From: Intrasporangiaceae bacterium
Lineage (GTDB): Bacteria; Actinomycetota; Actinomycetes; Actinomycetales; Dermatophilaceae
Assembly: GCA_021324575.1 (NCBI GenBank)
Contig: JAJPIW010000032.1
Span: 1-64,000, forward strand
DNA length: 64,000 nucleotides
Direction of reading: 5' to 3'
Positions 16,582 to 26,878 of this stretch are shown here, one piece after another. How positions within the stretch are numbered: position 1 is the stretch's first letter; each line of letters begins with the position of its first letter. The notes below the pieces were generated by a model. That model was not told the origin of the DNA, did not search any database, and saw only the letters and a program-made list of their open reading frames with translations. The position numbers and the translations under genes are program-made.

Positions 16582-16660
16582 CCGCCCGGGTCCGCCCGAA
16601 GGGTGAGAACCCGGACACACGGCATACGGGCTGCCCACGAGGCGGCATACGATGTCGGCA

Positions 16661-16785
16661 CGTGCTCCGGGGTCGGTGCAACTCCGAACCGGCGGTAACA
16701 GTCCGCGACCCGGCCGCAGCCAGCGGCCGGTTGACGAGGTGCAACTCCTCGACCGACGGTGAAAGTCCGGATGGTAGGCAGCACG
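16661..16785 (+). ncRNA. FMN riboswitch (RFN element) upstream of ribD
   Basis: Canonical blocks CTCCGGGGTCGGTGCAA, CCGAACCGGCGGTAACAGTCCGCGAC, CCGACGGTGAAAGTCCGGATGG; closing stem CGTGCT/AGCACG. Confidence 0.97.
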
Positions 16786-16894
16786 AGCCCGAGGCGCGTT
16801 GGCGTCGCGGGTGGGTTCGGCAGCGTCATCCGGCGACGCCGACCCACCGTCCACCTCCCGGAGCCCGACCGCAGATGTCGAGGCACGAGGACAG

Positions 16895-20271: not shown

Positions 20272-20331
20272 GCCCCGAGCCACTCAGGCCGGCCTACCCG
20301 ATCACCCGGCGCGCGGCATACGATGTCCTCA

Positions 20332-20456
20332 CGTGCTCCGGGGTCGGTGCAATTCCGAACCGGCGGTAACAGTCCGCGACCCGACCGCAGCCAGCGGCCG
20401 GTTGATGAGGTGCAAGTCCTCGACCGACGGTGAAAGTCCGGATGGTAGGCAGCACG
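20332..20456 (+). ncRNA. Second FMN riboswitch, upstream of pnuC/ribM
   Basis: Same RFN blocks; I count 4 substitutions over 125 nt relative to 16661-16785. Confidence 0.97.
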
Positions 20457-20566
20457 TATGCCGCTTCGGCACCGTGGTCCTGGTGGCCCGGGGTCTCCCG
20501 GCGCGGCATGCACGTTCCCCGGAGTTCGTCCCTGCACCACGACAACTCCAAGGACGAACACCTCTC

Positions 20567-22479: not shown

Positions 22480-22946
22480 GCCGACCGAGCGGCGCGTTCG
22501 CGCCGTTCCGCCCCCGCCGCGGTCGGGCCGTGGCGACGACCGCGGCCGTCGTCGTGGTGCTCGTCTTCGCGGTCGTCGCAGTCTTCCTGCCCGGGCCTCG
22601 GGACGCCGGGAACTGGACACCGTTGGACCGGGTCATGCTCATCGGGCTGGCCCTGGCGATCGCCTGGTTCCTCCTGCGCTATGCCTCGATCAAGGCGGTC
22701 CCGACCCGGGAGAGCCTCACGGTGCGCAACCTGCTCACCAGCCGGACCGTGGAGTGGAGCGAGATCGTGGCAGTGCAGTTCGCCGGCGCCGACCCGTGGG
22801 TCACCCTCGACCTGGCCGACACCGACTCCCTGGCGGTGATGGCGATCCAGAAGGCCGACGGGCCTCGCGCCCGCGCCGAGGCGGGCCGGCTGGCCGCGCT
22901 TGTCGCCGGCCTGGGCGAAGCCGGCGAGTCGGGTGGGTCGGGCTGA
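22476..22946 (+). CDS. PH domain-containing membrane protein
   Basis: Two TM segments then SLTVRNLLTSRTVEWSEIVAVQF; overlaps the hisG stop. Confidence 0.75.
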   Translation: MSRPSGAFAPFRPRRGRAVATTAAVVVVLVFAVVAVFLPGPRDAGNWTPLDRVMLIGLALAIAWFLLRYASIKAVPTRESLTVRNLLTSRTVEWSEIVAVQFAGADPWVTLDLADTDSLAVMAIQKADGPRARAEAGRLAALVAGLGEAGESGGSG

Positions 22947-22950
22947 CGCG

Positions 22951-22994
22951 GTGGGGTGCCGAACGCGCGGTATGCCGCGCCTTCGGCACCCCAC
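22951..22994. repeat. Long hairpin (19 of 20 bp paired) with TATG tip formed by the GTATGCC word; terminator/REP-like
   Basis: GTGGGGTGCCGAACGCGCGG-TATG-CCGCGCCTTCGGCACCCCAC. Confidence 0.9.
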
Positions 22995-23150
22995 CCGGAG
23001 CCGGGCAGCACCTCAGATGAGCTTGACCATCGCCTGGCGTGGCCATCGGTCGAGGCCCATCGCGCGAGCTGGCGACTGCGGGCAGCTCGCCTGACGCCGC
23101 CACCCGAATCCTGATCACATCCACCATCCTGCCGAGTTGGCCGACGGACT

Positions 23151-23227
23151 CTGCCCGTACGGCATCCCAGGAGGCTGGGGGATACCGAACGGGCGGCATA
23201 CTGCCCGTACGGCATCCCAGGAGGCTG
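23151..23227. repeat. 27-nt direct repeat CTGCCCGTACGGCATCCCAGGAGGCTG, period 50
   Basis: Identical copies at 23151-23177 and 23201-23227. Confidence 0.9.
23179..23218. repeat. Imperfect hairpin with GGCATAC word in loop
   Basis: GGGATACCGAACGGGC / GCCCGTACGGCATCCC, 14 of 16 paired. Confidence 0.75.
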
Positions 23228-23261
23228 AGGGATGTCGAACCGGCACCCATCCGTGACGCGT

Positions 23262-23301
23262 GGGATACGTGACGCGCGGCATACCGCACGTTCGGTATCC
23301 C
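23262..23301. repeat. Imperfect hairpin with CATA tip within the GGCATAC word
   Basis: GGGATACGTGACGCGCGG-CATA-CCGCACGTTCGGTATCCC. Confidence 0.75.
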
Positions 23302-23316
23302 TGCACTTCGGTGCAG
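23301..23316 (-). terminator. CTGCAC-TTCG-GTGCAG tetraloop hairpin downstream of the MFS gene
   Basis: 6-bp perfect stem with TTCG loop immediately 3' of the - strand MFS stop. Confidence 0.6.
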
Positions 23317-23327
23317 TGCCAAGCGGG

Positions 23328-24539
23328 TCAGCTGACCTTGGTGCGATCGGGGCGCAGGGCCAAGGCCGAAGCCACCTGGGGCACCATCACCGCGACGAGG
23401 ACGGCCCAGATCCACCGGTCTGTCCCGGTGGCGTCGCGCACCGCCCCGAGCGCGGTCGGCCCGACGGCCGCCGTCGTGTAGCAGAGCAGGAAGCACATCG
23501 CCGTGAACCGCGCACTGGCCGCCGCATCCACGGCATACCGGACGAGCAGCACCAGCCCGAGGGCGAACGCAGCGCCCTGACCGATACCGAGCAGGAGCGC
23601 CCAGACCCACGGCGCGGCGGTCGGGGCGAGCCAGATGCCCAGCTCGCCCGCCAGGCCGGACGCACAGGCGGCGAGCAGGAGGACCCGTTCGTCACGGACC
23701 TTGTCGGTGAGCCACGGCCCGACCAGACCGGAGACGAGCTGGGCACCGGTGAAGAGGGCGAGGAGAAGTCCGGAGCCGGCCGGCGTCCAGTGCTCGTCGA
23801 CGTAGGTGGGGGCCAGCCACGCCAGCGAGGAGTAGAACTGCACCGACTGGCAGGCCATGAACGCGGCGACGAGCAGCGCCGTCGCCGAGCGCCACGGAAG
23901 CCGGCCCGAGGCGGTCTGCGGCCGGTCGGTGGCGACGTGTCGGCGGTGGGCGATCCGGGCGACGGGGAGCCACGCGACCAGGCCGAGGGCCGCGACGACC
24001 CCCCACAGTCCGAGCGACAGCGGCCAGGAGCCGAGCGCATCGGCGACGGGCACCGTCACGGCCGAGGCCACACCGGCGCCACCCATCATGGCGAACATCG
24101 TCAGCCCGGTCGCCAGGCCGGTGCGGTGGGGCGGGAAGAACCCCTTGACCAGTCCGGGCATCAGGGTCCCGGCGAGCGCGATCCCGACGCCGGCGACCAG
24201 GGTCCCGAGGAAGAGCGGCCAGGTGAGGTCGCCCAGCCCGCGCAGCAGGTTGCCGACGACGACCAGCGCGACGGCCGCTGCCACCACCCGCCCGGCGCCG
24301 AACCGGTGCCCGACGCGGGCGGCGACCGGCGCGAACAGACCCATGCACAACACCGGAACCGTTGTGAGCACACCGATCTCGGCGCCGGACAGCCCGAGGT
24401 CGGTGCGCAGCGCCGGCTCGAGCGGCGGAAGCGACGCCATCAGGGTGCGCAGGGAGAAGCCCACACCGACGAGTCCCGCGACGACCACGGCGAGCCGTAC
24501 GGTCGGGCCCGCGGTGCGGCTCGGTGAGGTCGTCGACAT
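23328..24539 (-). CDS. MFS transporter (CynX/NimT-like)
   Basis: 403 aa, 12-TM pattern, GVGFSLRTLMASLPPLEPALRTDLGLSGAEIG. Confidence 0.85.
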   Translation of the reverse strand: MSTTSPSRTAGPTVRLAVVVAGLVGVGFSLRTLMASLPPLEPALRTDLGLSGAEIGVLTTVPVLCMGLFAPVAARVGHRFGAGRVVAAAVALVVVGNLLRGLGDLTWPLFLGTLVAGVGIALAGTLMPGLVKGFFPPHRTGLATGLTMFAMMGGAGVASAVTVPVADALGSWPLSLGLWGVVAALGLVAWLPVARIAHRRHVATDRPQTASGRLPWRSATALLVAAFMACQSVQFYSSLAWLAPTYVDEHWTPAGSGLLLALFTGAQLVSGLVGPWLTDKVRDERVLLLAACASGLAGELGIWLAPTAAPWVWALLLGIGQGAAFALGLVLLVRYAVDAAASARFTAMCFLLCYTTAAVGPTALGAVRDATGTDRWIWAVLVAVMVPQVASALALRPDRTKVS

Positions 24540-26593: not shown

Positions 26594-26632
26594 CGTGCCG
26601 CATGCCTCGATACCTCGCGCCTCGCGCCTCCC

Positions 26633-26707
26633 GGCTCCTCGTTCCCCGGCTCCTCGTTCCCCGGCTCCTCGTTCCCCGGCTCCTCGTTCCCCGGCTCCTC
26701 GTTCCCC
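26633..26707. repeat. Tandem repeat, 15-bp unit GGCTCCTCGTTCCCC x5 (VNTR-like)
   Basis: Exact units at 26633, 26648, 26663, 26678 and 26693. Confidence 0.97.
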
Positions 26708-26878
26708 GCACGTGCGGGGTTGTTCAGACCTACCCGCCGGTAACCCCGCCATAACCCCGCACGTGCGGGCTCGGTTGGGCGGGCCCCGCACCGGCGGGCC
26801 CGGTTGGCTGACCCCGCACGTGCGGGGTTGTTCAGACCTACCCGCCGGTAACCCCGCCATAACCCCGCACGTGCGGGG
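26704..26878. repeat. Palindrome array: four CCCCGCACGTGCGGG(G) units, with an exact 66-bp direct repeat (period 108)
   Basis: 26704-26769 and 26812-26877 identical; related palindrome CCCCGCACCGGCGGGC at 26784. Confidence 0.93.

Follow-up and report, generated by a model that had tools for sequence, protein, structure and literature searches.

The hairpins described here belong to an Intrasporangiaceae bacterium and lie within a 64,000-nt stretch of its DNA (the window, meaning the whole stretch that was analysed), where they sit in a 381-bp gap separating a PH-domain gene on the plus strand from a convergent MFS transporter gene on the minus strand (Table 1). Gene positions come from a simple finder based on codon usage that was made for this analysis. 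Three hairpins related to one another lie in the gap between positions 22951 and 23316, together with a 27-nt exact repeat of period 50 and a small TTCG hairpin, all intergenic.

Hairpins between two converging genes

The three related hairpins recorded in a first-pass annotation of this DNA are real. Their 40-mers align at 75–80% identity, and the identity is higher when hairpin 1 is taken on the minus strand. Hairpin 1 begins 6 bp past the PH-domain gene's stop codon, with a stem that reaches 22950-22995, and its predicted fold is far stronger than expected by chance (z −7.7, with 0 of 200 shuffles as good). Its homology to a copy at C39:8734 extends over ~95 bp at 84% identity, exceeding the hairpin itself. 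The folds of hairpins 2 and 3 are weaker (z −2.8 and −2.7, respectively). The stop of the MFS gene is 26 bp away from hairpin 3, whose left arm is degenerate because it is overlapped by a 16-bp tandem repeat (23248-23284).

The 27-nt direct repeat is likewise present as described and is nested in a longer repeat of 44 nt and 91% identity with the same period of 50. The placement of GGCATAC or GTATGCC across the apex also holds for all three window hairpins. The small CTGCAC-TTCG-GTGCAG element had been called a terminator; the hairpin exists, but it has no T-run, and a scan of 22800-23500 for intrinsic terminators (a GC-rich stem followed by a T-tract) returned none. Rfam matches at or above the gathering score in the window comprise FMN riboswitches and one tRNA only, with none for the array. 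The two FMN riboswitches (20329-20459 and 16659-16787) lie 3.7 kb apart in 144-bp direct repeats that are 96% identical. Two other repeat tracts were observed in the window: at 26630-26878, a 15-bp tandem repeat (5.3 copies) precedes two identical 66-bp blocks that hold four CCCCGCACGTGCGGG(G) palindromes, and at the window start (105-266) there are two inverted-repeat hairpins based on TTCCCTCTGCACCCGA.

Table 1. Coordinates of the array and its neighbour genes in the window.
Feature	Position	Strand	Remarks
PH-domain protein gene (PF10756)	22530..22946	+	after hisG; upstream neighbour of array
Type B element, hairpin 1	22953..22992	-	GGGGTGCCGAAGGCGC-[GGCATACC]-GCGCGTTCGGCACCCC, read on - strand
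Hairpin 1 arms	22953-22968/22977-22992		
27-nt exact direct repeat	23151-23177 = 23201-23227	+	period 50; half-site and spacer duplicated
Type A element	23153..23244	.	four 16-bp half-sites, orientation < > < >, spacers 10/8/10 bp
Half-site a1 of type A	23153..23168	-	GCCCGTACGGCATCCC on +
Half-site a2 of type A	23179..23194	+	GGGATACCGAACGGGC
Hairpin 2 arms	23179-23194/23203-23218		
Central spacer of type A, 8 bp	23195..23202	.	GGCATACT; tip of hairpin 2; sequence variable among copies, length fixed
Half-site a3 of type A	23203..23218	-	
Half-site a4 of type A	23229..23244	+	
Type B element, hairpin 3	23262..23301	+	17 bp after type A element
Hairpin 3 arms	23262-23277/23286-23301		
Small hairpin CTGCAC-TTCG-GTGCAG	23301..23316	+	CTGCACTTCGGTGCAG; without T-tract
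MFS transporter gene (PF07690)	23328..24539	-	convergent neighbour of array

A dispersed element of four half-sites

Hairpin 2 is the mere centre of a larger, 92-bp arrangement, here termed the type A element, which is completed by two flanking half-sites (a1 and a4) absent from the first-pass annotation. The half-site of the window copy reads GCCCGTTCGGCATCCC, and successive half-sites follow in steps of 26/24/26 bp. At this four-half-site geometry the window copy attains a complementarity score of 54/64. Twenty dinucleotide shuffles gave maxima of 35-39 per 64 kb at the same geometry, and the next-best value in the window itself is 35.

A covariance model of the three window hairpins (R1), the check proposed in the earlier annotation, matches the window's own draft genome (4.24 Mb, 103 contigs) at about 15 places or more. 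They divide into at least 10 type A elements and about five single hairpins (type B). Since genome searches scored the best candidates only, all copy numbers given here are lower bounds. A second model (R2), built from the ten own-genome type A copies, recovers all ten on that genome and adds none, and where the own genome matches the half-site with no more than one mismatch, the match falls inside a type A or B element in nearly every case. A type B element stands next to a type A element, 17-20 bp apart, at three loci: in the window (17 bp), on C24, and on C39 (19-20 bp). The pair on C24 adjoins a phage-type tyrosine integrase gene (PF00589; L264 2010-3158). No transposase-like gene was recognised in the ORFs between two elements that lie 1.2 kb apart on C52, and there were no plasmid, phage, or viral contig matches.

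The HisG sequence, 80% identical to that of Pedococcus, places the genome in the Dermatophilaceae/Intrasporangiaceae. Type A elements also occur in relatives, with at least 14 copies in G017 and at least nine in G041, which represent two further genera, and three degraded ones in G001; weak matches are found in G013, and G021 has a variant layout with a period of ~62. The R2 search of the other sampled families gave zero matches. The earlier proposal of a dispersed palindromic repeat family, rather than a unique terminator, is thus borne out by the ~15 own-genome places and the further copies in relatives. In both G017 and G041 the half-sites have diverged to GTGCGTCTGGCACCTC-like sequences, with the layout of 16-10-16-8-16-10-16 common to these two genomes and the own genome. 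Spacer length is kept in 97 of 99 type A spacers, although spacer sequences are mostly unrelated among copies; information content is mostly 0.1-1.0 bit per position in the spacers versus up to 2 bits at arm positions.

Repeated and palindromic, all 33 type A copies are extragenic by our own gene calls. When type B copies are included, the neighbouring genes are co-directional in 16 cases, convergent in 12, divergent in two, and undetermined in two, and the elements sit mostly downstream of genes. No flanking locus common to elements of different genera was found. The order hisG-PH/MFS is kept in relatives, where the gap is 0-154 bp and holds no such element, versus 381 bp here; the cluster was therefore gained in this genome or lost elsewhere.

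Stems, half-sites, and rival origins

The first-pass annotation treated the hairpin as the functional unit. Were the stems kept as stems, partner arms from the same copy should pair better than arms drawn from different copies. Arm pairing within each of 26 non-redundant type A copies was compared, on this basis, with pairing to partners from other copies of the same genome. No same-copy advantage emerged (P = 0.53 for a1:a2, 0.32 for a3:a4, 0.77 for a2:a3, and 0.08 for a1:a4), complementarity of the variable core columns was at chance level only, and type A arms showed no G-U preference, C-A and T-G mismatches being equally frequent. The copies were retrieved with arm-based models, so the sample is biased toward fixed spacing and conservation of the arms. 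Taken by themselves, the ten own-genome copies show weak covariation for the pairing a1:a2 plus a3:a4, with 14-19 of 500 shuffles equalling or exceeding the observed score or percentage. A structure combining an inner hairpin with an outer stem was rejected for type A, as covariation for it was absent from the same ten copies. The absence of pair covariation and of a G-U excess favours independent protein half-sites over RNA or single-stranded DNA hairpins, and spacers of mostly unrelated sequence but constant length are what one would expect if a protein that requires fixed spacing read each half-site on its own. The conserved unit is, accordingly, a set of four half-sites at fixed spacing rather than the hairpin of the earlier description.

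These tests bear directly on the possibility that the palindromes fold into RNA stems where converging transcripts have their 3′ ends, serving either as bidirectional terminators or as mRNA stabilisers. The location behind genes with few divergent sites, the closeness of hairpins 1 and 3 to the two flanking stop codons, and the very stable folds are all consistent with such a role, as are near-perfect 16-bp, type-B-like stems with compensatory changes in G008 and G016. In these two genomes, judging from the stem sequences, a hairpin role may apply. As a general account of the elements, however, it appears rather unlikely: a T-tract is absent, the 26 type A copies lack pair covariation and G-U preference, a terminator would not need constant loop and linker lengths, and the same two genes end without an element in relatives.

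In a distinctly unlikely account, mobile DUF222-HNH (REP13E12-like) units would use the element as their recognition sequence or end, and solo copies would be empty sites or remnants. The basis of this account is largely in G017, where nine of 14 type A copies lie near the left end of a repeated unit of ~1.9 kb. Most copies of this unit are 85-90% identical to one another, the DUF222-HNH gene starts ~105 bp downstream of the element, and homology stops near the stop codon of that gene. One of the three degraded type A copies in G001 is similarly linked, standing 87 bp before a DUF222-HNH gene that is ~36-44% identical where alignable. Yet neither of the two DUF222 genes in the own genome nor any of the eight in G041 is adjacent to an element, and several HNH genes of G017 lack one. 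The G017 cases are, moreover, explicable by hitch-hiking within a duplicated unit, which is the simplest reading of that link; it is possible that the HNH protein recognises the element. One to two copies of AGTCGAGTGGCCACTTTCGTAC were observed to precede the type A element in the repeated G017 unit (L244, L245, L248, L250, L251, L252, and L262). The presence of type A within a multi-copy DUF222-HNH unit in G017 recalls the REP13E12/DUF222-HNH repeats of Mycobacterium tuberculosis (named in PMC10589994), from which the type A and B copies of the window differ in having no DUF222-HNH gene link.

In layout and location the elements are REP-like: as in the GTAG-tagged REP, BIME, and REPIN sequences of E. 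coli and Pseudomonas (PMC3733652, PMC3116915), short extragenic palindromes alternate in orientation, cluster near gene ends, and are lineage-specific. A classical REP/BIME or REPIN moved by a RAYT (Y1, TnpA_REP) transposase would account for small extragenic palindromes that alternate, cluster, and are patchy across species. The elements nevertheless fail the defining tests of REPs. RAYTs accompany GTAG REPs, and REPs have a GTAG or CGTC foot (PMC3733652, PMC6006769); none of the ten own-genome type A copies has GTAG/GTRG or CGTC flush with the palindrome foot. The association with RAYT/Y1-transposase genes suggested earlier was not borne out, as the search for PF01797 found none in 38 genomes (own plus 37 relatives), with E. 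coli and other controls positive. REPs usually number more than 100 per genome (PMC2817692), against ~10-15 places, a lower bound, in the own genome. REPINs are doublets with compensatory stems (PMC3116915), and REP/BIME/REPIN arrays are open-ended; type A, in contrast, comprises exactly four half-sites at fixed spacing, without stem covariation in its arms and with unlike spacers in most copies. RAYT-driven movement is thus very improbable and largely refuted here. CGTC-tagged REPs, which have no dedicated transposase (PMC3733652), offer another likeness: this family too lacks one, and in three of five type B copies (hairpin 1 of the window, C39, and C31) a CGTC lies ~4 nt beyond the hairpin foot. 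Stems of 8-9 bp, loops of 4-5 nt, and a CGTC at the foot characterise those REPs, whose reported occurrence covers five phyla, Actinobacteria not among them (PMC3733652), whereas type A carries no such tag.

The word at the hairpin tips proves to be a phenomenon separate from the element family. GTATGCCG occurs 76 times in the window versus 1.9 expected (~40-fold enrichment) and 4,724 times in the genome versus 388 for the reversed control, or ~1 per 900 bp on both strands. Roughly half of the genera of the family show this enrichment, none outside it does, and in two relatives (G038 and G039) GTACGCCG is enriched in its place. The word lies mostly in coding DNA, its variable base falling mostly at the third codon position (46 of 59 share one phase). 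Its density, strand equality, and variants recall DNA-uptake or HIP1-type words. An origin of the word solely by C-to-T change of GTACGCCG was rejected, given that GTATGCCG far exceeds the loss of GTACGCCG and that two relatives enrich GTACGCCG. At L063 1501-1563 in a genus-mate (G002), the sequences GGACACGCGGCATACGG...CCGTATGCCGCGTGTCC form a long inverted repeat, each of whose arms contains the word. The separation of word from element follows from the loops and from the genomes: only five of ~15 own-genome element loops carry GGCATAC, the elements of word-poor G017 and G041 have unrelated 8-bp loops, and G017, G041, and G021 bear elements with almost no word. The association with the word proposed earlier is consequently unsupported, and despite three of three window tips and the enrichment in window and genome, it is scarcely credible that the hairpins serve as carriers of the word (for example, as inverted uptake-type signals) when most other members have other loops, the element occurs in nearly word-free genomes, and the word is mainly coding.

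A putative nucleoprotein site and its significance

The best explanation, in which we place about even confidence on sequence grounds, is that the array represents a cluster from a lineage-specific family of dispersed intergenic repeats whose half-sites would be read by a putative protein. An RNA hairpin or a classical mobile REP seems to fit the 92-bp elements less well than a docking site for such a protein. They are dispersed, extragenic, and mainly 3′ to genes, and they combine fixed geometry with variable spacers; the binding protein, its oligomeric state, and its effect are what we infer. Most likely, each half-site would be recognised in double-stranded DNA by one subunit of the putative protein, and four bound subunits would assemble behind genes into a single complex. 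Half-site inversion would then give rise to hairpins as a by-product, and the type B single hairpins are relatives with two half-sites. Candidate effects include chromosome organisation, control of transcription ends, or service as a recognition site for a mobile system.

Operators of the CIRCE type are a useful point of reference, being paired inverted half-sites at promoters with a fixed spacer of variable sequence. Type A resembles them in its inverted half-sites and in spacers of fixed length and variable sequence, but has four half-sites rather than two and lies behind genes rather than at promoters. A more specific proposal is offered tentatively: the element may be a fixed-geometry 92-bp nucleoprotein site of four half-sites (26/24/26-bp steps) for a putative protein, possibly tied to DUF222-HNH genes, with half-sites that drift between genera at constant spacing; this would give Actinobacteria a route to REP-like repeats that needs no RAYT.

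REP-like repeats are known mainly from Proteobacteria, where RAYT transposases are the usual explanation, and a literature search on REPs in Micrococcales and on RAYTs or uptake sequences in Actinobacteria found no relevant report among the papers covered. The family is new: lineage-specific and REP-like, without the transposase of REPs. Patchy in Actinobacteria, strict in geometry, drifting in its half-sites, and unaccompanied by a RAYT, it parts "REP-like" from "RAYT-moved." The type A element provides a defined bait with which to find the protein responsible for maintaining or spreading such repeats, and the DUF222-HNH link in one relative gives a testable role to a large, unexplained actinobacterial gene family.
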